This document shows positions 3,988 through 41,282 of a DNA stretch of 64,000 bases, in pieces. The notes under the pieces were generated by a model, which was not told the DNA's origin, searched no databases, and worked only from the letters and a program-made list of their open reading frames with translations. A program made the position numbers and the translations under genes. Position 1 is the stretch's first letter, and each line of letters begins with the position of its first letter. The stretch is from Desulfuromusa sp. (GTDB lineage Bacteria > Desulfobacterota > Desulfuromonadia > Desulfuromonadales > Geopsychrobacteraceae), in NCBI GenBank assembly GCA_016744595.1, contig JADGEB010000013.1:1-64000 (forward strand). Direction: 5' to 3'.

Positions 3988-4581
3988 ATGAACGAATTTA
4001 GAAGTGAAGTCAAAGAATTGCAGATAGGTCAGAAGATCCGCGAGCTCAGACAGAAGCAACGGTTGACTTTGCAGGATCTTTCTCAGACAACCGAATTGTC
4101 CAAGCCGTTGTTGTCGCAGGTTGAAAACGACCAGGTGATTCCGCCTTTAGCAACACTACTTCGCATTGCTAAAGCTCTTCGAGTGCCATTGCAGACTTTT
4201 TTTGAGGAAGAAGCCAACACGCAAAAGTGTCTAATTGTTCGAGCTGATGATGCGGATCGTATGAATCGTCGTCCGAGTCATGGGGGTGCACCGCAACCCT
4301 ACTTCTACCATTCACTGGCTTATGGGAAAAAACATAAACATATGGAGCCATTTCTGGTGGAATTTGACCCAGCACAGACAGACCAAGCACAACCGGTGAG
4401 TCATCCCGGAGAAGAATTTTTCTATATCCTGGAAGGACAAGTTGAGTTAAAGCACGGAGTTGAAACCTACATTTTGAATCCTGGCGATTCGGTCTACTGG
4501 GATTCCAATGAACCTCATCAGCTTAAAGCACTTGGGACAAAAATTGCCCATGGAATTGCAGTTCTTTATCCCAGAAACTGA
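3988..4581 (+). CDS. XRE-family regulator with C-terminal cupin
   Basis: About 197 residues. An N-terminal helix-turn-helix of the XRE/lambda-Cro type (IGQKIRELRQKQRLTLQDLS, then SKPLLSQVENDQVIPPLATL) is followed by a small beta-barrel cupin (HPGEEFFYILEG, then LNPGDSVYWDSNEPH) likely to sense a small molecule. This HTH-plus-cupin layout is shared with PuuR/SutR-type regulators of amine, amino-acid or sulfur metabolism; the ligand here is unknown. The ATG at 3988 is preferred over an upstream TTG (3928) because AAGGG lies six bases before it and the family normally starts close to the HTH. It stands 89 bases upstream of elbB and may be monocistronic. Confidence 0.85.
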   Translation: MNEFRSEVKELQIGQKIRELRQKQRLTLQDLSQTTELSKPLLSQVENDQVIPPLATLLRIAKALRVPLQTFFEEEANTQKCLIVRADDADRMNRRPSHGGAPQPYFYHSLAYGKKHKHMEPFLVEFDPAQTDQAQPVSHPGEEFFYILEGQVELKHGVETYILNPGDSVYWDSNEPHQLKALGTKIAHGIAVLYPRN

Positions 4582-4670
4582 GAATTTCGAATTTATTCTG
4601 TTATGCTTTGTAAATATCTTTTTTTGATATCTGTTGATCCAGTTTAACAATAATTGATCCGGAGGTTGTC

Positions 4671-5336
4671 ATGGCAAAAGTAGGAGTTATTCTTTCAGGC
4701 TGTGGTGTCTACGACGGTAGTGAAATTCATGAGACCGTTATCTCTCTGTTAGCTTTTGACCGTGCTGGAGCAGATGTTGTGTGTATGGCTCCCGATATGG
4801 AACAAGCTGTTGTTAACCATTTGACGGGTGAGTCGGTCGATGGAGTCAATCGTAACGTATTGGAAGAATCGGCACGAATTGCACGGGGTGAAATCAGTGA
4901 TATTGTCAAGATTAAGGCTACCGATTTAGACGCATTGTTTATTCCCGGAGGGTTTGGAGCTGCAAAAAATCTCTGCGATTTTGCTTTCAAGGGTTCAGAC
5001 TGTGAAGTGCATCCTGAAGTTGCCAGGTTGATTCGAGAAATAGTTGCGTCAAAGAAACCTCTGGCAGCAGTCTGTATTGCTCCTGCACTTGTTGCCAAAG
5101 TTCTGGGTAGCGAAAAAATGGATCCTCAGGTTACGATTGGCACAGATGCCGAGACAGCAGGGGCTGTCTCTTCAATGGGAGCCACGCATGTTTCCTGTCC
5201 GGTTAGTGAGTTTGTTATTGATAAGGAAAACAAAATTATTACCTCTCCTGCTTATATGCTTGCGAGCAATATAAGTGAAGCGGCGGAGGGGATTGAGAAG
5301 ACCGTCAATGCGCTTATGGAAATGCTCGATGATTAA
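4671..5336 (+). CDS. elbB: ElbB-type DJ-1/PfpI glyoxalase-like protein
   Basis: A 221-residue class-I glutamine amidotransferase-like protein closely following the ElbB pattern: VGVILSGCGVYDGSEIHE at the N-terminus, ALFIPGGFGAAKNLCDFA, and the nucleophile elbow AAVCIAP with Cys135. E. coli ElbB has been described as an isoprenoid-biosynthesis-associated protein and as a weak glyoxalase III; the physiological role remains unclear. It is the same length as its homologues and has a strong ribosome binding site (CCGGAGG). It precedes the rubredoxin gene by about 110 bases in the same direction. Confidence 0.92.
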   Translation: MAKVGVILSGCGVYDGSEIHETVISLLAFDRAGADVVCMAPDMEQAVVNHLTGESVDGVNRNVLEESARIARGEISDIVKIKATDLDALFIPGGFGAAKNLCDFAFKGSDCEVHPEVARLIREIVASKKPLAAVCIAPALVAKVLGSEKMDPQVTIGTDAETAGAVSSMGATHVSCPVSEFVIDKENKIITSPAYMLASNISEAAEGIEKTVNALMEMLDD

Positions 5337-5446
5337 TTTTGCTTTGATCAGAAAAAAAATAACCACGTATTGTAATAGGTAGTCAAAACTGCTAAGTTTT
5401 AGTTTAGTGAACTTTTTACCATAGCATTTTAATCTAGGAGGCTCAA

Positions 5447-5605
5447 ATGAAGCAATATGTCTGTGTTGTGTGTGGTTATGTTTATGATCCGGCTGTAGGT
5501 GATCCTGATAGTGGTATTGCGGCGGGAACCAGTTTTGAAGATATTCCGGAAGATTGGGTCTGTCCACTTTGTGGAGTTGGCAAGTCTGACTTTGAAGAAG
5601 TATAA
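5447..5605 (+). CDS. rubredoxin
   Basis: A 52-residue one-iron electron carrier. Both CxxCG knuckles are present: [10 protein letters not shown] near the N-terminus and [12 protein letters not shown] near the C-terminus, with the usual acidic and aromatic residues (IPEDWVCP) between them. The length is exactly typical. AGGAGG six bases before the ATG is an excellent ribosome binding site. In anaerobes rubredoxins pass electrons to rubrerythrin, superoxide reductase or flavodiiron proteins for oxygen and peroxide detoxification; none of these partners is in the window. A strong terminator follows at once. Confidence 0.96.
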
Positions 5606-5631
5606 AATTTAGTCGTTTTAGGTTGAATTAT

Positions 5632-5675
5632 CAGAGCCCGATTGCATTAATGCAATCGGGCTCTGTTTTTTTTAT
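5632..5675 (+). terminator. strong intrinsic terminator after rubredoxin
   Basis: A perfect inverted repeat spans 5632-5665 (CAGAGCCCGATTGCAT and its reverse complement around a 2-base loop), followed by eight T residues. It ends the elbB/rubredoxin transcript and insulates lipA. Confidence 0.93.
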
Positions 5676-5750
5676 TCCGAAATTTTACCCAAGTTCGTAC
5701 TGCTGCTTGTTTCTCTATGTAATTTAATCGGCAGAAAAGGCAAAAGAAGG

Positions 5751-6632
5751 ATGCATCAAAACCATATTCGCAAGCCTGACTGGCTCAAAGTCAAGTTTCC
5801 TGCGGGGGCTAATTATACCAGGATAGATCGTTATCACCGTCTTAATGGTCTTAATTCTGTTTGTCGCAGCGCAGCTTGCCCGAATCAAGGTGAGTGTTGG
5901 AGCCAAGGTACAGCAACCTTTATGATCCTTGGCAATACTTGTAGTCGCCACTGCCGTTTTTGTAATGTGGCTAGTGGGCAACTTGAACGACCTGATCCAC
6001 AAGAACCGGCCAGAGTGGCAAAAGCTATTTATGAGCTGGAGCTCAAACATGCGGTTATCACCACAGTGACCCGAGATGATCTTGGCGATGGTGGAGCCAG
6101 TCAATTTGTAGATTTAATTAGAGAAATTCGTAAATTAACCAGCGAATGTCGGATTGAACTTTTGATTTCTGATCTACAGGGAAATCAGGAGGCTCTTGCC
6201 AGTATTGTGGCTGAGAAGCCCGATATTCTTGGGCATAATGTCGAAACTATTCCTCGGCTTTACTCGCAGGTGCGTCCTGAGGCTGAATACCGGCGTAGCC
6301 TGTCTCTACTGGCAGACATTCATCGGCTCGACCCTAATATTATTACCAAGTCAGGTCTAATGATGGGGATGGGGGAAACTGAAGAGGAAGTCCTGCGAGT
6401 GATGGTCGATTTGTGTGAGCATGACTGCAAGTTGTTGACCTTGGGACAGTATCTTGCCCCAACTCGGAACCACTACCCGGTTCAACGCTATGTATCACCG
6501 CAAGAATTTGCTGACTATGCCAAAAAAGGGCTTGCCCTTGGGTTTGCCCATGTAGAAGCGGGGCCACTGGTACGATCTTCATATCACGCAGAAGAGCAGT
6601 ATGATGCGAGCAAAGGGGAAGCTCATGGATAA
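5751..6632 (+). CDS. lipA: lipoyl synthase
   Basis: A 293-residue radical SAM enzyme that inserts two sulfur atoms into octanoyl groups on carrier proteins to make lipoate. It has the auxiliary cluster cysteines C38, C43 and C49 (VCRSAACPNQGEC) and the SAM-cluster motif C64, C68, C71 (CSRHCRFC). The C-terminal RSSYHAEE motif carries the serine that ligates the auxiliary cluster. Its context is coherent: the lipoyl-dependent 2-oxoglutarate dehydrogenase operon lies about 0.8 kb downstream. No lipB or lplA is in the window. Its last 8 bases overlap the start of the thioesterase gene, indicating translational coupling. Confidence 0.97.
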   Translation: MHQNHIRKPDWLKVKFPAGANYTRIDRYHRLNGLNSVCRSAACPNQGECWSQGTATFMILGNTCSRHCRFCNVASGQLERPDPQEPARVAKAIYELELKHAVITTVTRDDLGDGGASQFVDLIREIRKLTSECRIELLISDLQGNQEALASIVAEKPDILGHNVETIPRLYSQVRPEAEYRRSLSLLADIHRLDPNIITKSGLMMGMGETEEEVLRVMVDLCEHDCKLLTLGQYLAPTRNHYPVQRYVSPQEFADYAKKGLALGFAHVEAGPLVRSSYHAEEQYDASKGEAHG

Positions 6633-6984
6633 CTTCACTATAGTTCGTCCGGAACATTTGAATCACCATGGCTATCTGTTTGGTGGAGTGATGCTGAAAT
6701 GGGTCGATGAAAATGCTTGGATGGCGGCTTCGCGGGAATATTCTGCTTGTAATCTAGTGACTGTCGGAATGGATGCCTGTCGTTTCAAACATCGGGTTGA
6801 AAATGGATCAATCCTCCGTTTTCATACGGAAAAATTAAAGCAGGGCAGAACCTCTGCAACCTATTCTGTCGTGGTTTTTGCCGATGCACCCGGCGCTTCA
6901 CAGGAAAAAGAAGTCTTCAGTATTTCAGTGACATTTGTACGCTTGAATAAAAATGGCCGCCCTTGTGGGCTGACTATTGGGTAG
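6625..6984 (+). CDS. hotdog-fold acyl-CoA thioesterase (YciA-like)
   Basis: About 119 residues in a single hotdog domain. The N-terminal LNHHGYLFGGVMLKWVDENA matches the substrate-binding turn, helix and catalytic Asp of YciA/BFIT-type acyl-CoA thioesterases, and a VEVENG/GRTSATY-like strand pair follows. It should hydrolyse acyl-CoAs, releasing free CoA and acid; chain-length preference is unknown. The ATG at 6625 is chosen over two upstream ATGs (6601, 6604) because AAGGGGAAG precedes it and homologues start there. It overlaps the lipA stop codon. It ends just before a shared bidirectional terminator. Confidence 0.85.
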   Translation: MDNFTIVRPEHLNHHGYLFGGVMLKWVDENAWMAASREYSACNLVTVGMDACRFKHRVENGSILRFHTEKLKQGRTSATYSVVVFADAPGASQEKEVFSISVTFVRLNKNGRPCGLTIG

Positions 6985-7448: not shown

Positions 7449-10127
7449 ATGAGTGTTATTGATAATGTCAGCCCTGAATGGATAGAAACTCAGTACCAGA
7501 TTTTTAAAGAAGAACCTCAACAGCTTCCAGACGAGTGGCGATCATTTTTTCAAGGGTTTGAGCTGGGCATGGAAAATGAATCCTCCACTGTTCCAGATCG
7601 AAAGCCTGCTGCAGTTCAATCGATGATCCGTCGCTATCGTGATATTGGTCATTTTTACGCTTGTGTTGATCCCTTAACTCCTTGTGAGCTAAATCACCCT
7701 CAACTTCAAATTTCTGAATTTGGGTTGGAAGAAAAAGATTTACAGCGCACTTTTGCTACAGATAATTTTATTCTTCCCGAAGCGCCCCTCAGAGAGATTG
7801 TTGATGTCTTAAAGCAGACCTACTGCCGTTCTCTTGGCCTTGAGTTTATGCATCTTACGGATCTCAAAGAGCGTCAATGGTTGCAACAGAATGCAGAAGA
7901 ATCACGTTTGCGTTCTGACCTGAGTCGTGAAAAGAAGCTCGCGACGATGAAAATGCTGCTTCAAGCGACTAAGTTCGAATCTTTTCTGCATCGCAAATTT
8001 GTTGGTCAAAAGCGTTTTTCTCTTGAAGGGGCGGAATCGGTGATTCCACTGCTTGACCATCTGGTTGAAAAAGCAGCAGAGCTTTCACTCCAGCATGTTG
8101 TTATTGGTATGTCACATCGTGGCCGGCTTAATGTCCTGGTGAATATTTTCAAAAAACCACTGGAGAATATGTTTGCAGAATTTGCCGATAATGCAGGATG
8201 TAAAATTGTTGGTGAGGGAGATGTAAAGTATCACAAAGGTTATTCCACAGACCGCTGCTTTAGCAACGGATGTGTTCGTGTCTCTCTTGCCTCTAATCCA
8301 AGTCATCTTGAAGCTGTTAACCCGGTTGTTGAGGGAAAGTGTCGCGCGCGACAAGATCGTCTTGACGGGGATGGTGAGCAATTAGTCATGCCCCTCTTAA
8401 TCCATGGAGATGCTGCATTTGCTGGGCAGGGAGTCGTTGCTGAAACTCTCAACTTGTCTCAACTTGCTGGATATAAAACTGGTGGCACCTTGCATCTGGT
8501 TATCAATAATCAGATTGGTTTTACCACCCTGCCAGTTGATGCTCGCTCCACTTGCTATTCTACCGATATCGCCAAAATGTTGATGGCACCCATCTTCCAT
8601 GTTCATGGCGACGATCCAGAAGCACTGATCCAGGCCGCAACGATGGCAATCGAGTTTCGTCAAAAATTCCGCAAGGATGTTGTTATCGAAGTGATCTGCT
8701 ATCGCAGGTATGGGCATAATGAGGGGGATGAGCCATTTTTCACCCAACCGTTGATGTACGAAAAAATTCGTAATCATCCACTGACCGCCGATATTTACAA
8801 AAACCAACTTCTTCTGGAAGGGTTCGCTGAAAAAGAATTTCAATCAATTGCGGACGACATTGATCAGAATCTGGAAGAGGCTTTGAGCCATGAAATCTGC
8901 CCGCTTCATGAAGAATTTATGCAGCAGTGGGTACATGTTTCACGGAAGTTCAGTTTTGATCCTGTCGAAACTGGTGTTGATAGGGAAATACTGCGGCAGT
9001 TGAGTGGTTCCCTGACGACTGTTCCTGATGATTTTTCACCGCATCGAAAAATAACAACACTCCTCAAAAAGCGCCATAAGGCTGTTGCAGAAGAGACAAG
9101 TATTGACTGGGGAACTGGTGAAGCTCTCGCTATGGCCAGTTTGGTGAACGAAGGCACTTCAATCCGTTTATCTGGCCAAGATTCCCGGCGTGGAACCTTC
9201 AATCATCGCCATGCGACTTTATACGATATAGCAACAGGTAGGGAGTATACTCCACTGGCAGATATTGCTAAGGAGTCTGGGTGTCGTTGTGATGTGTTTA
9301 ACAGTATGCTTTCAGAAATGGCAGTTCTTGGTTTCGATTATGGCTACGCTGTGGAGACACCGAATGATCTGACGATATGGGAAGCTCAATTTGGCGATTT
9401 TGCCAATGGAGCTCAGGTCATCATTGATCAGTTTATTGCCAGTAGTTTGGCTAAGTGGGATCGCCCGAGCGGAATTACGATGTTTCTTCCTCATGGTTAC
9501 GAGGGGCAGGGACCGGAACATTCCAGTGCTCGGATGGAACGCTATCTGCAACTTTGTGCTGACAATAATATGCAGATTGTCAATACCAGTACTCCTGGAC
9601 AATTATTCCACTTGTTGCGGCGGCAAGTTAAGACCCAACATCGTTGCCCGCTGATTCTTTTCACGCCCAAAGCATTGCTGCGTCATCCCGCTTGTGTCTC
9701 GACGGTGGAAGATCTGACCAGTGGTCATTTTCAGGAAGTTTTGGCCGATGATCTGGATGCCAAGAAATGTCGCCGGGTACTGCTTTGCTCTGGTAAGGTT
9801 TATTATGATCTGCTGCAGCAACGTCTAGATGACAAGCATAAAGATGTCGCAATTGTTCGTATTGAACAAATATACCCGCTGCATAAAGAATTATTGAAAA
9901 AAATTCTCAAACCATACAAAAAATCGGTTGAATATTGTTGGGTACAGGAAGAAATTGCCAATGCTGGAGGTTGGGATTACCTGCGTCCACAGTTGCGTGA
10001 ATTAATCGGTCGTGAACCCGAATATATCGGACGCAAGCGTTCTGCCAGTACCGCCGTTGGTTCAAACCGGATTCATCGAATTGAGCAGCAACATATTTTA
10101 GATAGTGCTTTTGCCCCCTCAAAATAA
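7449..10127 (+). CDS. sucA: 2-oxoglutarate dehydrogenase E1 component
   Basis: An 892-residue thiamine-diphosphate enzyme that decarboxylates 2-oxoglutarate and succinylates the lipoyl arm of SucB. The N-terminal SPEWIETQYQIF segment is the E2-binding region. The ThDP site includes GDAAFAGQGVVAETLNL followed by VINNQIGFT, and the C-terminal pyrimidine domain carries EAQFGDFANGAQ and HGYEGQGPEHSS. The length matches single-chain OGDH E1 proteins. It heads a tight operon with sucB (8-base gap) and lpdA. Its presence implies an NAD-linked oxidative TCA step, whereas many anaerobic relatives rely on a ferredoxin-dependent 2-oxoglutarate oxidoreductase. Confidence 0.97.
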   Translation: MSVIDNVSPEWIETQYQIFKEEPQQLPDEWRSFFQGFELGMENESSTVPDRKPAAVQSMIRRYRDIGHFYACVDPLTPCELNHPQLQISEFGLEEKDLQRTFATDNFILPEAPLREIVDVLKQTYCRSLGLEFMHLTDLKERQWLQQNAEESRLRSDLSREKKLATMKMLLQATKFESFLHRKFVGQKRFSLEGAESVIPLLDHLVEKAAELSLQHVVIGMSHRGRLNVLVNIFKKPLENMFAEFADNAGCKIVGEGDVKYHKGYSTDRCFSNGCVRVSLASNPSHLEAVNPVVEGKCRARQDRLDGDGEQLVMPLLIHGDAAFAGQGVVAETLNLSQLAGYKTGGTLHLVINNQIGFTTLPVDARSTCYSTDIAKMLMAPIFHVHGDDPEALIQAATMAIEFRQKFRKDVVIEVICYRRYGHNEGDEPFFTQPLMYEKIRNHPLTADIYKNQLLLEGFAEKEFQSIADDIDQNLEEALSHEICPLHEEFMQQWVHVSRKFSFDPVETGVDREILRQLSGSLTTVPDDFSPHRKITTLLKKRHKAVAEETSIDWGTGEALAMASLVNEGTSIRLSGQDSRRGTFNHRHATLYDIATGREYTPLADIAKESGCRCDVFNSMLSEMAVLGFDYGYAVETPNDLTIWEAQFGDFANGAQVIIDQFIASSLAKWDRPSGITMFLPHGYEGQGPEHSSARMERYLQLCADNNMQIVNTSTPGQLFHLLRRQVKTQHRCPLILFTPKALLRHPACVSTVEDLTSGHFQEVLADDLDAKKCRRVLLCSGKVYYDLLQQRLDDKHKDVAIVRIEQIYPLHKELLKKILKPYKKSVEYCWVQEEIANAGGWDYLRPQLRELIGREPEYIGRKRSASTAVGSNRIHRIEQQHILDSAFAPSK

Positions 10128-10135
10128 GGATTGAT

Positions 10136-11326
10136 ATGGACATCATAGTTCCTCAGGTTGGTGAGTCAATTGTCGAAGCGGAAATTGGTGAATGGTTCAA
10201 AAAAGATGGTGAATATGTCGAAAAAGACGACCTGCTCATGGAATTGGAAACTGAAAAGGTAAATGTTGAACTCAATGCTGAAGCTTCCGGAACGTTAACG
10301 GTTCTGGTCGGTCAGGGAGAAACGGTCAAAATTGGTGCTGTGATTGGCAAGATCGATGAAACGGCTACAACCGCCCCTGCAGCAGTAAGCAACAGTGAAG
10401 GGTTGGAGCCAGTTGACACTGCAACAGAGCCAGTATCGATGAATCCGGCGGTTCCAAAGTTGGTTGCAGAACGGGGTATAGATCTATCGACTTTAAAAGG
10501 TAGTGGCCGTGATGGCCGGATCCTTGTTGATGATATTCCCCCCGCTAAGGCAGAAGAAGTAAAATCGGCTCCGGTTGAGGCTCAGACAGCGCCAGTAATC
10601 CCGCCAGTCGTACCAGCTGAAACTTCTGAACGTATCACTCGGGTACCAATGTCACAGCTGCGTAAGAAAATTGCCGAACATCTTTTGCGTGCCAAGCAAG
10701 ACACCGCAATGCTGACTACATTTAACGAAATCGACATGAGCCGGGTCATGGCTCTGCGCAGCAACTATAAAGAATTGTTTCAAGAGAAACATGGTGTCCC
10801 TCTGGGCTTCATGTCTTTCTTTGTTAAGGCTTGTGCCGAAGCCTTGAAACCTTATCCGGAGGTCAATGGCAGTATTGATGGCAACGACATTGTCTATCAT
10901 AATTATTACGACATTGGAGTCGCTGTCGGCAGCAAGCGTGGGCTGGTGGTTCCAGTAATTCGGAATGCTGATACTCTACACTTTGATGAAATTGAAAAAA
11001 CTATTCGTGACTTTGCTCAGCGTGCCAGTGATGGCAAGCTGACTTTGGACGAACTGCAAAATGGGACCTTCACCATCAGTAATGGTGGAATTTATGGCTC
11101 AGTTCTTTCAACCCCGATTCTTAATCCACCGCAGAGTGCTATCCTGGGAATGCATGCTATACAAGATCGGGCTGTCGTTGTGAATGGTGAGGTGGTTATC
11201 CGCCCGATGATGAATATTGCTCTTAGTTATGATCATCGAATTATTGATGGACAGCAGGCTGTCAGCTTCCTTAAGCAAGTCAAAAGTTACATTGACAATC
11301 CGGAAACGCTGCTACTAAAAGTTTGA
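10136..11326 (+). CDS. sucB: 2-oxoglutarate dehydrogenase E2 (dihydrolipoyl succinyltransferase)
   Basis: A 396-residue core subunit that transfers succinyl from its lipoyl arm to CoA. One N-terminal lipoyl domain carries the modified lysine K41 in ETEKVNVEL. After an Ala/Pro/Val linker comes the peripheral-subunit-binding domain (about 104-140, PAVPKLVAERGIDL then GSGRDGRI). The C-terminal catalytic domain ends with the HxxxDG motif, H367 and D371. The lipoyl domain starts at the first residue, as in SucB, and the distance to E1 is 8 bases. K41 is the substrate of the LipA enzyme encoded upstream. Confidence 0.97.
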   Translation: MDIIVPQVGESIVEAEIGEWFKKDGEYVEKDDLLMELETEKVNVELNAEASGTLTVLVGQGETVKIGAVIGKIDETATTAPAAVSNSEGLEPVDTATEPVSMNPAVPKLVAERGIDLSTLKGSGRDGRILVDDIPPAKAEEVKSAPVEAQTAPVIPPVVPAETSERITRVPMSQLRKKIAEHLLRAKQDTAMLTTFNEIDMSRVMALRSNYKELFQEKHGVPLGFMSFFVKACAEALKPYPEVNGSIDGNDIVYHNYYDIGVAVGSKRGLVVPVIRNADTLHFDEIEKTIRDFAQRASDGKLTLDELQNGTFTISNGGIYGSVLSTPILNPPQSAILGMHAIQDRAVVVNGEVVIRPMMNIALSYDHRIIDGQQAVSFLKQVKSYIDNPETLLLKV

Positions 11327-11342
11327 GCTAAAAGGAGAAAGA

Positions 11343-12755
11343 ATGTCTGAACAGATATATGACCTGATAGTGATTGGTGCTGGTCCTGGCGGATATGTTG
11401 CGGCAATTCGTGCGGCACAACTTGGATTTTCTGTTGTTGTCATCGAAAAACGCTCAGCTTTGGGCGGTGTCTGTCTGAATGAGGGTTGTATCCCTAGTAA
11501 AGCGTTACTTGAATCGAGTGAACATTTTGCCAGGCTTGATCACGAATTGGCAGACCATGGAATTGAAGTCACTGGAGCCAAGCTGAATTTGGAACAGTTG
11601 ATGTCTCGTAAAACCGGGATTATCGATAAATTAACCAGTGGTATTGCCGGGCTGTTCAAAAAGAACAAAATAACTTCGATCACTGGACAGGCAGAGTTGT
11701 TGGAGAATGCCGGTTCAAATAAAAAAGTCAAGGTTACTAGCAGCAAAGGGTCTCAAGAGCTTTTTGGAAAAGTTATTCTTCTGGCGACCGGCAGTGAGGC
11801 GATTGAGCTGCCGCATCTGCTTTTCAATGGCAAATCAGTTATCAGTGCACGAGAAGCCCTCAGCTTGAAGGAAGTTCCGAAGCGCTTACTGGTTGTTGGT
11901 GGTGGAGTGATCGGTCTGGAGCTGGGTTCGGTCTGGAGTCGACTCGGTGCAGAAGTCACGGTCGTGGAAATGCTGCCGCAGATTCTTCCTCAAGCCGATT
12001 CCCAAGTAGCGCAAACATTACAGCGTAGCCTGAAGAAACAGGGTCTCGATATTTTGCTTAAAACTCGGCTTGATAAGATTGAAACGACTGACGTAGGTAT
12101 TTTGGCAACGCTGACAACTGCAAAAGGGGAACAGCAACTGGAGTGCGACAAGGTGTTGGTTGCCACCGGGCGGCGTGCTCAAACAACGGGACTCGGGCTT
12201 GAAGCTGTGGGCTTGCAGACAAATAAGCAGGGACAACTGGATGTTGACGAAAATTACCAGACCGCTGTTTCTGGGATTTATGCTATCGGTGACTTGATCC
12301 CCGGTCCGATGTTGGCTCATAAAGCCAGCGAAGAGGGTGTTGTCTTTGCGGAAAGGCTGGCGGGACAAAAATCGGCTCTCAACTATCAGGTTATTCCGGC
12401 TGTGACCTATACCTGGCCTGAAGTCGCAACAGTTGGAAAAAATGAAGCCGAATTGAAAGAAGAAAATATCCCCTATAAGGGAGGAAAGTTTTTCTTTGCT
12501 GCGAGTGGCCGTGCCCTTTGTACCGGTATGAGCGATGGCTTTGTCAAGATCCTGGCTGACCCAGATACAGGAAGAATTCACGGTATTCACATTGTTGGCC
12601 CACAGGCATCAGAACTGATTGCCGAAGCAACGACGGTGATGTCTTTTTCTGGTAGTGTTCATGATCTGGCAGTGACTTGTCATGCCCATCCGACCTTAGC
12701 AGAGGCGCTCAAAGAAGCTGCCCTGGCGGTGAACAAAGAAGCTATTCACGCTTGA
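11343..12755 (+). CDS. lpdA: dihydrolipoyl dehydrogenase (E3)
   Basis: A 470-residue flavoprotein disulfide oxidoreductase that reoxidises dihydrolipoyl groups with NAD. It has the FAD-binding GAGPGG (12-17), the redox disulfide C44/C49 in GGVCLNEGCIPSK, an NAD-binding GGGVIGLELGS segment, GIYAIGDL, and the C-terminal catalytic His449/Glu454 pair (HAHPTLAE). It lies 16 bases after sucB with AAAGGAG as ribosome binding site. It is the third subunit of the complex and could also serve pyruvate dehydrogenase or glycine cleavage encoded elsewhere. Confidence 0.97.
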   Translation: MSEQIYDLIVIGAGPGGYVAAIRAAQLGFSVVVIEKRSALGGVCLNEGCIPSKALLESSEHFARLDHELADHGIEVTGAKLNLEQLMSRKTGIIDKLTSGIAGLFKKNKITSITGQAELLENAGSNKKVKVTSSKGSQELFGKVILLATGSEAIELPHLLFNGKSVISAREALSLKEVPKRLLVVGGGVIGLELGSVWSRLGAEVTVVEMLPQILPQADSQVAQTLQRSLKKQGLDILLKTRLDKIETTDVGILATLTTAKGEQQLECDKVLVATGRRAQTTGLGLEAVGLQTNKQGQLDVDENYQTAVSGIYAIGDLIPGPMLAHKASEEGVVFAERLAGQKSALNYQVIPAVTYTWPEVATVGKNEAELKEENIPYKGGKFFFAASGRALCTGMSDGFVKILADPDTGRIHGIHIVGPQASELIAEATTVMSFSGSVHDLAVTCHAHPTLAEALKEAALAVNKEAIHA

Positions 12756-37052: not shown

Positions 37053-37541
37053 TTACGCTAAAGCCACATCTGCTTCTGCAACAAAAGACTCAATATCAAG
37101 AAGAATTTTCACCTCATCATCCATTTTGCCCATGCCTCTGATATGGCAGTTTTCTTCACCATGCTTTGGTGGCGGTTCAATCTGTTCTATTGGAATTTCA
37201 ATAACTTCTTTAACGCGGTCAACCACCAACCCTGTAGTTTGGTCGTTTACTTCAACAACGATGATACAGTTACGCTCATCATAGTCACGCCAAGGTAGGC
37301 TGAATCGGAGCCGGACATCCATGACCGGAATAACCCGACCACGTAAATTGATGACTCCTTTAATAAATTCTGGCATATCTGGAACATTGGTGATTTTCTG
37401 AACACCAATGATCTCAGTGACATTACTGATGGCAATGCCGTAGTCTTCATTATCCAGAAGAAATGTCAGAAACAGGTCTCGCTGCGAGTCTTCAATGATC
37501 TGATCTTCCGCCATATCAATTGCAAGTGCTGTATTTGCCAT
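37053..37541 (-). CDS. cheW: chemotaxis coupling protein CheW
   Basis: A 162-residue CheW-domain protein that couples chemoreceptors to the CheA kinase. Visible features: FLLDNEDYGIAISNVTEII, ITNVPDMPEFIKGVINLRG, RVIPVMDVRLRF and the later NDQTTGLVVDRVKEVIEI. The chosen start, ATG 37541, has GGAAGGAG nine bases upstream; an ORF extension to 37595 overlaps the preceding gene stop and lacks such a site. It follows the chemoreceptor by about 35 bases and is last in the transcript. No cheA, cheR or cheB occurs in the window, so it must feed a remote array. Confidence 0.93.
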   Translation of the reverse strand: MANTALAIDMAEDQIIEDSQRDLFLTFLLDNEDYGIAISNVTEIIGVQKITNVPDMPEFIKGVINLRGRVIPVMDVRLRFSLPWRDYDERNCIIVVEVNDQTTGLVVDRVKEVIEIPIEQIEPPPKHGEENCHIRGMGKMDDEVKILLDIESFVAEADVALA

Positions 37542-37575: not shown

Positions 37576-39774
37576 TTAATATCTGCCCAAATCATTATCG
37601 TTTAAAGCGATCTGTGGTTGCTCTTGCCTCGGTGTAGCTGTTACTTGCTCTGATATGTCCTTCCAGCTATTGGTATCTGCTTTTGCCACATGTGGTCGAA
37701 TGTTCTGTTCTTTATCGACCACATTCCGTCCCTGATGTTTCAAGGTGAAACGCTGCAACATATGGCTCAGTTGGACTGCTTGTGCCGACATTTCTTCAGC
37801 GGCTGCGGCACTTTCTTCAGCATTGGCCGTATTTTGTTGGGTTACGCTATCAATCTGTGAAATTCCCTGATTTATTTCAGCAACCCCCTGAGCCTGTTCT
37901 TGGCTTGCAGCAGCAATCTCAGCAACCAGATCGGTGACTTTACCGACACCGACAACAATTTCCTGTAAAGCTTCTGCTGTCTGGTTGGCAATGACACTAC
38001 CGTTCTCAGTTTTTGCTACCGAACCTTCGATTAACTCTGAAGTTTCTGCCGCAGCTTTGGCACTGCGGGCGGCAAGATTACGCACTTCTTCGGCGACCAC
38101 AGCAAAACCTTTGCCATGTTGACCGGCACGAGCGGCTTCAACTGCCGCATTGAGAGCAAGCAGGTTGGTTTGGAAAGCGATTTCATCAATTGTCTTGATG
38201 ATCTTGGAGATATTCTGCCCTGCCTCATTGATTTCAGCCATAGCTGAAACCATTGTCTGCATTTGACCACTGCCTTTTTCTGCTGCATGCTTGGTTTCTG
38301 TTGATAAGCAGTTGGCTTTTGTCGCATTTTCTGCATTGAGAGTTGTTTGTGAGGAGGTTTGATTGAGGGATGCCGAAATTTCTTCAAGAGAAGCTGCTGA
38401 TTCGGTCGCTCCCTGAGAAAGTGATTGGCTCGAATCAGCAATCTGACCTGAAGCAGATGAAATTTCTTCCCCAGATACCAGAATTTGTCCCATGATGTCG
38501 TTCAGGTCGTCGCCGAGCTGCTTGATTGCATTGCGCAACTTGTCCTGCTCATCTCGTGGAACCACTTCAAAGGTCAGATCTCCTTTAGCAAGTTTTTGCA
38601 GGGAATCAACCATTTCATTTTGTAAGGAATCGGCAAACTGATCCATCGATTCAGCCATCTGACCAATTTCATCTTTCCGGTTCAATTGCAGACGATTGTC
38701 CAGATGTCCATTTCCCAGTTCTTCAAGCATCTCAACCGTCTTACGCATCGGAGCTGTCATAGACCTACTGATTAAAATTGCGATAATGCTGCCAAGGAGC
38801 AGGGCGATGATACCGACGGAGACAACGGTTGCCTTCTGGGTTTTAATAGCACTTGCACTTTCTGCTAACAAAATTTCTTTACGTGCTTCAACACTCTCTC
38901 TAATTTGTTCAAGTTGGTGCTGTACCTTTTGCAGGTTTGGTTGGGTCACTGAAGTGAAAATCTGTGTTGCTTGCTGCTTCCCTTTAAGAGCAGCCTGAGC
39001 TATCTGCCCAGATTTATGGACAATCTGACTCACTTTCTCTAATGTCGGAGTGACTTTTGTGGCAAAATAAGCTGTGGCTCCGCTGTAATCACCAGATCTC
39101 AGGAGGTGGTTGATTTTTCTACCTTGATTATGCAGTTGCTCATGAGGCTCTTTGAGCCCTTCGAATGCCTTTGCTAGCTCAGGATTTGCTGCCGTTACTT
39201 TTTTTCCTTCTTCTCCATAGATAAATTTCCCAAGTGAGCACTTGGTGTGGTCAAACTCTACATCTACTCCACTTTCATTTGCAATAATCGCCTGTTGAAT
39301 CTTAAATGCCCAATGAGTGTGATCCAGTTCTTTTTCGGTTAAAAATAGTGGGAGATCTGGATCTGCTGCACGGTAGACGGCTTTGATTTGTTTTGCTGAA
39401 GCATGGAGTTTTGCATGCGGACTTTCAATGGCCTGCATGGCACTGCGGATTTCAGGTACCATCAGCTCCGCGTGTTGTCGACCTTCGCCATAATACCATT
39501 TACCAAAACCACATTGTTCATGATCCATCTGGACATTAAGCTCATTAATCTTGTCGTCATTGAGGAATGTGGCTACCTGTCCCGCCCAGTTCAGATGATC
39601 TATTTCTAATTGTGCCACATTACTGTTAAGGAGTTGGCCATCTGCAACCTCTTGACCTTTTTTTACTGTATTAGACAGCCCATATAACCCTATAGACAGG
39701 ACTATCAGGAGCAGGCTAAGAATGGTTCCTGAAAGTAGCAGCATTTTTTTTCCAATTTTTAAGTTGTCAAACAT
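37576..39774 (-). CDS. methyl-accepting chemotaxis protein with two tandem CZB domains
   Basis: A 732-residue chemoreceptor. TM1 is at about 11-33 and TM2 at about 316-336, leaving a 280-residue outer region. That region contains two chemoreceptor zinc-binding (CZB) repeats, each with the His-Cys-His-His ligand set: H60, C88, H120, H124 and H152, C179, H211, H215, with the typical CxxGKW/F core. A HAMP domain follows (about 337-390), then the signalling domain with the hairpin tip [25 protein letters not shown] domains usually sit in the cytoplasm at the C-terminus and sense zinc or hypochlorous acid through the zinc-bound Cys. AAAGGAAA precedes the ATG. Operon with cheW. Confidence 0.92.
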
Positions 39775-40324: not shown

Positions 40325-41282
40325 TCATCCATTGAGAGTATTGATTATATCGACCCTGTTCTTCACCTTAAATGATCCGACACCCTTCTCCGATTGGCTA
40401 ATAGTTCGCAGTTTCGTATCAACCTTTGTTATGAATACATCTCTTGCCGACCAGTTGATGTTGATGAGGGCGACCCTGTTTTGCTGGTTTTTGTTGCTGT
40501 TCCTGTACTGACCATCTCGATGGTTTTTCAGTGTTTGTTTCACCGATACCCCTTGTGCCTTTATTGCTATCAAGCAGGTCAGTAACCAGTTCTGTTAGTT
40601 TTTCAATGCGAACAATAATTTCCTGTAAACCCTCTGTAGCTTGATGAATAAGAGCATCGTCGACATCAGTTTTATGTGCCGACCTTTCAATTAGCTCTGA
40701 TGTGTCGGCGGCCACTCTTGTCCCAATTTCAGCCAGATGACGTACTTCTTTTGCGACCACTGAAAAAACATTTCCGTGCCAACCACCACGAACTGCTTCC
40801 ACTTCAGCATTCAGGGCAGTTAGGTTAGTATGGAAAGCGACACCGATGACAATTTTTGAGATATTTTGTTGTGCTGACAGGTTGTTAAGCTGAGGTATGT
40901 TTTTTTTATTGGGGGATATTTGTGACTCAATTTGATGGGGAATTTTTGCTATTTTTTCTGATAAAGTCACCGATTCAATTGCTTTTTGACAAGAAAGCTG
41001 ATTGGTAATATCAGCTTGATTCGGCATTGTTGCTATCTTATCTCCTGACAATAGAATTTGACTTTTGATTTCATTCAGGTCGATGCTAATTTTTTTAAGA
41101 TTGGTGCAGAGGGTGTTGCGTGCGGTCGCAGAGGACGCGTCTAAGGTTCTAGAACCAAACCAATGGATCACTTTGCCGAACCTCTGCGAAATAGAGTTAT
41201 TGATTCTTAGTTTAGGTAACCCTATGTTGATCTCGCCAATTTTAATTACCTGGTTCCACCGCATAGAATACGCTCCATTCAC
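40325..41282 (-). pseudogene. decaying, frameshifted chemoreceptor (MCP signalling domain remnant)
   Basis: A 287-codon frame (41282-40419) aligns by eye with the signalling half of the adjacent intact receptor: DLNEIKSQILLSGDKI versus [16 protein letters not shown], and FHTNLTALNAEVEAVRGG versus [18 protein letters not shown], then DTSELIERS versus ETSELIEGS. Many invariant tip residues are altered. Near 40500 the similarity moves to another frame (WSARDV versus MSAQAV), which ends at 40325, so at least one frameshift has occurred. It has no transmembrane or sensor part and no evident start signal. It is best read as a paralogue of the intact neighbour now in decay. Confidence 0.8.

Follow-up and report, generated by a model that had tools for sequence, protein, structure and literature searches.

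The minus strand of the window, a stretch of 64,000 nucleotides from a Desulfuromusa genome (contig JADGEB010000013.1), carries the gene of a chemoreceptor followed by a gene for CheW (Table 1). The receptor is arranged in the order TM1 – CZB1 – CZB2 – two strap repeats – TM2 – HAMP – MCP signalling domain, and shows the characters of an MCP: a signalling domain, two flanking transmembrane helices and a HAMP domain after TM2. Pfam and hydropathy agree that a duplicated CZB lies between two transmembrane helices and ahead of HAMP, as proposed in the initial annotation.

The PF13682 (CZB) profile matches two stretches of the whole protein, with 98.7 bits in all and an E-value of 2.5e-28. The initial annotation had left the profile check to be done, and both repeats pass it, since CZB1 (61.2 bits) and CZB2 (50.9 bits), scored separately in the genome, each exceed the Pfam cut-off of 29.4 bits. 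Only two of 14 control genomes, those of E. coli and Caulobacter, contain a match above this cut-off, which together with the scores of both repeats rules out chance matches. The eight His and Cys residues that had been assigned as ligands, 60/88/120/124 and 152/179/211/215, are exactly in place. A Pfam search of the protein gave no match to the HBM domain, and its best score for 4HB_MCP_1, over residues 4–49, was 16.9 bits, below the cut-off of 27.

Table 1. Features of the tandem-CZB receptor locus, and the CZB receptors of the same genome. Positions are those of the window unless a contig is named.
Feature	Residues	Position	Strand	Basis and remarks
Chemoreceptor gene	732 aa	37576..39774	minus	ORF and Pfam; ATG start at 39774
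TM1	7–37	39664..39756	minus	hydropathy; AlphaFold
CZB1	60–130	39385..39597	minus	PF13682, 61.2 bits; predicted ligands H60, C88, H120, H124
CZB2	152–221	39112..39321	minus	PF13682, 50.9 bits; predicted ligands H152, C179, H211, H215
Strap repeat B2	228–263	38986..39093	minus	36-residue self-similarity; consensus
Strap repeat B1	264–299	38878..38985	minus	single-strap profile match
TM2	313–343	38746..38838	minus	hydropathy; within one AlphaFold helix 230–354
HAMP	334–385	38620..38775	minus	PF00672, 51.3 bits
MCP signalling domain	491–645	37840..38304	minus	PF00015, 166.8 bits, E 5.3e-49
CheW		37053..37541	minus	PF01584, 139.2 bits; directly downstream of the receptor
Tandem-CZB receptor, same genome		C17 near 105 kb
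Tandem-CZB receptor, same genome		C17 near 187 kb
Tandem-CZB receptor, same genome		C23 near 2.5 kb
Tandem-CZB receptor, same genome		C23 near 7.5 kb
Single-CZB receptor, same genome		C7 near 57 kb		C-terminal hemerythrin domain

The longest reading frame of CheW begins at position 37595, within the receptor gene. Comparison with a Desulfuromusa relative, the metagenome-assembled genome of locus L009, suggests that the true start is at 37541; the receptor of this relative is 70% identical to that of the window and is also followed by CheW on the same strand. Among the collected loci a CheW-like neighbour was found in 17 and a CheA-like one in 9. No zinc- or redox-linked genes recur near the collected receptors, and the neighbourhood was dropped as a clue to the ligand because its recurrent genes all belong to chemotaxis.

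Several loci show signs of local duplication or decay. Upstream of the tandem-CZB gene lies an MCP-like ORF of 287 residues (40419–41282, minus strand) that has no match to HAMP and only a weakly matching signalling domain; it resembles the remnant of a receptor gene in decay. In L121, two near-identical CheW genes (6376–6927 and 10507–11058), placed behind a 4HB-type and a tandem-CZB receptor, respectively, are a recent local duplication. In L123, a similar long protein comes after each of two neighbouring tandem-CZB paralogs (4493–6454 and 9527–11491); by Pfam the first of these proteins is PAS-GGDEF-EAL, and the second is apparently its duplicate. This arrangement suggests a link to c-di-GMP.

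Membrane side and predicted zinc sites

The initial annotation had placed the CZBs on the periplasmic side, and the prediction is upheld by the only two hydrophobic segments in the protein, which flank the CZB pair, and by the distribution of charge. Among 86 tandem relatives, the fraction of Lys and Arg is 0.23 N-terminal of TM1 and 0.15 C-terminal of TM2, compared with 0.09 on the two sides facing the CZBs, a pattern that fits CZBs located outside. A cytoplasmic location, with both hydrophobic segments misread, would match the majority of CZBs in the 2021 survey (PMC8262984), but is hardly credible here: both flanking helices are clear, the charge pattern of the relatives places the stretch outside, and HAMP and the MCP domain, which are necessarily cytoplasmic, come directly after TM2.

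The receptor is not of the soluble TlpD-like kind, having two transmembrane helices and CZBs (residues 60–221) N-terminal to the MCP domain. With its CZBs N-terminal and between TM1 and TM2, it corresponds to the periplasmic subgroup outlined in the survey by Perkins et al., which counts 384 putative periplasmic sequences, about 3.9% of its collection (PMC8262984). An outer CZB had been presented in the initial annotation as a departure from the typical case. The contrast with cytoplasmic TlpD and the duplication both stand, but a periplasmic CZB as such was already published in that survey. Like the present one, its receptors are membrane-bound chemoreceptors with a CZB enclosed by two transmembrane helices; in the portions of the survey consulted, nothing is said of tandem or triple CZBs, a strap repeat or stacking, nor is any biochemistry given for this group.

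The only Cys residues between TM1 and TM2 are C88 and C179, both of them predicted ligands. In the 86 tandem relatives, the pattern of His, CxxG and HxxxH is kept in 84 first and 83 second CZBs, and the outer part contains exactly two Cys in 76. This conservation fits two metal sites under selection, and from their sequences both CZBs of the window receptor would be occupied by zinc. In the sample compared, the residues D, H, W, C, G and K and the HxxxH motif are invariant among first, second and third CZBs. A Trp three residues past the first zinc His, which the survey reports as a feature of the cyclase group (PMC8262984), is present in both CZBs (H60/W63 and H152/W155). The residue following the ligand Cys is G89 or S180 in the window receptor and mostly A, G or S in doubles. 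The same source gives Ala or a variable residue, mostly not Arg, for the periplasmic subgroup (PMC8262984); as a marker of the periplasm this position does not discriminate, because C-terminal CZBs in the sample likewise have mostly A (10/21). A search of the open-licence literature found no zinc measurement, ligand or behaviour for any periplasmic CZB.

Relatives and the predicted nested tower

The genome encodes six CZB receptors, five tandem and one single. The initial annotation had called for a count of family members with tandem CZBs between TM1 and TM2. Relatives were gathered from roughly ten phyla, about 100 of them tandem and nine triple. When GTDB genomes were scanned with the tandem sensor, 79 loci came up, nearly all tandem and two triple, and their spread over about ten phyla rules out that the arrangement is unique to this genome. 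The hosts, mostly bacteria of sediments and redox gradients, belong to Desulfuromonadales, Desulfobulbaceae, Desulfobacterales, Magnetococcales, SAR324, Gammaproteobacteria, Nitrospirota, Planctomycetota, Spirochaetota, Latescibacterota, Zixibacteria and Krumholzibacteria. Some relatives lack HAMP.

A CZB is present in 96 of 297 genomes of the phylum of the window, and in each of the 48 genomes searched within the class to which a magnetococcal locus (L014) belongs. Among the best 122 CZB proteins listed for the phylum, 22 are double and three triple by coordinates alone. Sequences were read for 116 listed proteins, of which 48 contain one periplasmic CZB, 19 two and six three, in 16 the CZB follows the MCP domain, and the others are soluble, cut or unclear; as the list is ranked by Pfam score, these counts do not amount to an unbiased census. 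The periplasmic CZB is the commonest kind among the best-scoring Pfam matches of the phylum.

Some proteins depart from the common plan. The paralog on C17 near 187 kb (L122:7773–10139; also L001) carries within HAMP, on the cytoplasmic side, an insert with at least seven Cys in about 50 residues, possibly a second metal or an iron-sulfur site. The single-CZB receptor with hemerythrin (L124:7579–9753; also L004) is predicted to carry metal sites on either side of the membrane and adjoins genes for CheA, CheW, CheR and a CheB-like protein. An ORF of 361 residues on the minus strand of L052 (offset 3672) contains two weaker CZB matches behind a single hydrophobic segment, and no MCP tip motif was seen in it; it is possibly a tandem CZB protein that is not a receptor.

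The spacing of the outer part is rigid. The midpoint of TM1 lies 37.6 ± 1.5 residues from CZB1 in 86 doubles and 36.7 ± 1.0 in the nine triples, and one CZB follows another at 91–92 residues among the listed phylum matches. The distance from the last CZB to the midpoint of TM2 is mostly 58–68 residues in singles with a TM1-adjacent CZB, 98.9 ± 1.9 in doubles and 136 ± 3.6 in triples, and each extra CZB therefore adds about 92 residues on the way up and about 36 on the return. The stretch past the last CZB is self-similar at an offset of exactly 36, with z = 34 in the 86 doubles, 19 in triples and 2.4 in singles, and triples show a second peak at offset 72 (z = 11). The repeated unit, the strap, has a consensus of roughly A..IY..ET.PaL..VQ..L. 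In 81 of 100 doubles and eight of nine triples, the best match to a profile of the single-CZB strap falls at the TM2-adjacent end, which indicates the nested order CZB1-CZB2-strap2-strap1. By this comparison the membrane-proximal repeat B1 appears equivalent to the strap of single-CZB receptors, and B2 would belong to the upper storey, paired with CZB2.

The outer sensor is predicted to have the shape of a tower. In the AlphaFold2 model of the window receptor, run on an alignment of 42 relatives (mean pLDDT 90.7), helix 7–72 joins TM1 to CZB1 and a single helix, 230–354, extends from the end of CZB2 through TM2. The AlphaFold model of a triple-CZB protein from Desulfatibacillum alkenivorans (mean pLDDT 87.0) contains a return helix at 321–425, continued at 429–510. 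Taken together, the CZB spacing, the strap repeats and the long return helix of the models indicate that a CZB with its strap is a nested, stackable storey, with one more strap for each extra CZB. Thirty-six residues correspond to ten turns of a helix, so an extra storey would keep the return helix in register. A Foldseek comparison with the CZB structure of DgcZ (3T9O) gave a probability of 0.99 and a TM-score of 0.54 by target, but an E-value of 0.39; no Foldseek match was found with the window sensor model at E 0.001, and a sequence search of the PDB for a CZB structure also returned no match.

A tree of CZB units places the second and third CZBs, which come from about ten phyla, together in a single clade (98/98) that excludes most first CZBs; within it the third CZBs are a subclade (93/89). 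A few rows are misplaced, the units are short, the root is arbitrary and the bootstrap values were still unsettled. The simplest reading is one old duplication followed by spread. Many recent independent duplications are mostly ruled out by the single clade of second and third CZBs.

The storeys also vary in kind. Fourteen receptors have a CZB about 138–153 residues from TM1 and 94–101 residues from TM2, the latter as in doubles, and in the two of them checked by Pfam (L076:3654–5882 and L172:1705–3831, minus strand) a 4HB/TarH module forms the lower part beneath a single CZB. The return length of two storeys therefore seems independent of what the lower storey is. CZB2 of L216 (ORF from 2277) is interrupted by a single Cache domain, which separates its first zinc-ligand His from the Cys, and another Cache domain lies between the CZB and TM2 in L173 (ORF from 2722). 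Judged from these domain arrangements, the CZB tower is modular.

Proposed zinc sensing and its alternatives

The H. pylori TlpD and Salmonella McpA receptors likewise have a CZB with three His and one Cys that controls an MCP signalling domain, but they are soluble with one C-terminal CZB, whereas the window receptor has two, predicted outside and N-terminal, coupled through transmembrane helices and HAMP. DgcZ of E. coli (CZB-GGDEF) shares the N-terminal position of the CZB and differs in being cytoplasmic, with one CZB and an enzymatic output. The TorS sensor and the HBM domain of McpS, which are weak Foldseek matches, also extend away from the membrane as stacks of long helical bundles; no CZB Pfam match is reported for them, and the modules of the present family are, in contrast, homologous repeats of up to three. 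No paper describing tandem, double or repeated CZBs was found in the open-licence literature, and no description of the strap repeat or of mixed 4HB/CZB and Cache/CZB towers was found there either; domain databases such as InterPro may list the architecture. The stacking of up to three CZBs with a matching strap repeat appears to be new.

To our knowledge, the working cases of CZBs are all cytoplasmic. On balance we favour, as a working model, a transmembrane chemoreceptor with a periplasmic tower of stacked CZB zinc sites that serves as a sensor of zinc availability. TM1 would rise into CZB1, with CZB2 on top, and a long helix would return to TM2 with one 36-residue strap per CZB. Each CZB would hold Zn(II) by three His and one Cys, and loss of periplasmic zinc, or attack on the Cys-Zn bond, would rearrange the affected storey and shift the return helix against TM1. 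HAMP would relay this shift to the MCP tip, with CheA controlled through the adjacent CheW, and swimming would follow the zinc availability outside, a proxy for oxidant, oxygen or sulfide. By analogy with the cytoplasmic relatives and from the anatomy of the receptor, a helix movement that alters TM2, HAMP and CheA is likely; the zinc occupancy, the stimulus, the direction of the signal and any cooperation between storeys are inferred. As possible stimuli the initial annotation had named zinc, oxidants or sulfur species of the envelope. Other CZB receptors, TlpD and McpA, answer to zinc and oxidants (PMC6715182, PMC13370339), and a 2026 preprint proposes that CZBs read the outside redox potential via soluble zinc (PMC13370339).

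Zinc could instead be structural, stapling a stiff scaffold in a receptor that responds to something else, be it a small ligand bound in a cleft or a binding protein acting as its partner. A scaffold would agree with the very high conservation and the rigid geometry. Cache, a typical small-molecule sensor, is found in or after the CZBs of L216 and L173, and a 4HB/TarH module can form the lower part. The zinc affinity of CZBs is also reportedly extremely tight, as quoted in the survey (PMC8262984), and zinc might never leave if an outside CZB binds as tightly as DgcZ. We nevertheless hold this rather unlikely: almost every copy retains the Cys, beyond what a pure scaffold needs, the cytoplasmic CZBs are regulators, and most towers lack an added sensor domain. 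Less probable still is a direct sensor of oxidants or reactive sulfur, in which periplasmic modification of the Cys thiolate in each storey would not depend on the zinc supply. HOCl does oxidise the zinc-bound Cys of TlpD and DgcZ (PMC6715182, PMC8262984), and the outer part has no Cys besides its two ligands; yet for the bacteria that carry these receptors, mostly from sediments and redox gradients, no source of HOCl is known, and the 2026 preprint argues that McpA reads soluble zinc and not Cys oxidation (PMC13370339). Zinc as a variable read outside is judged more likely than a purely structural role, and the receptor probably serves to guide cells by the zinc or redox conditions around them.

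For the family as a whole, it is a tentative idea that extracytoplasmic towers of metal sites grow outward by nested duplication, with one to three zinc sites at fixed heights reading zinc or redox jointly or over a wider range. What CZBs sense is contested between cytoplasmic zinc, direct oxidation and outside redox through zinc, and a CZB outside would separate these options, as it is exposed directly to the zinc and oxidants of the environment and escapes the zinc buffering of the cytoplasm. The series of one, two and three storeys, of which this genome alone has five doubles and a single, is a natural set for the effects of extra zinc sites. Nested duplication would also offer a transmembrane receptor a way to lengthen its sensor with its signalling helix kept in register, because each added strap makes ten helical turns.
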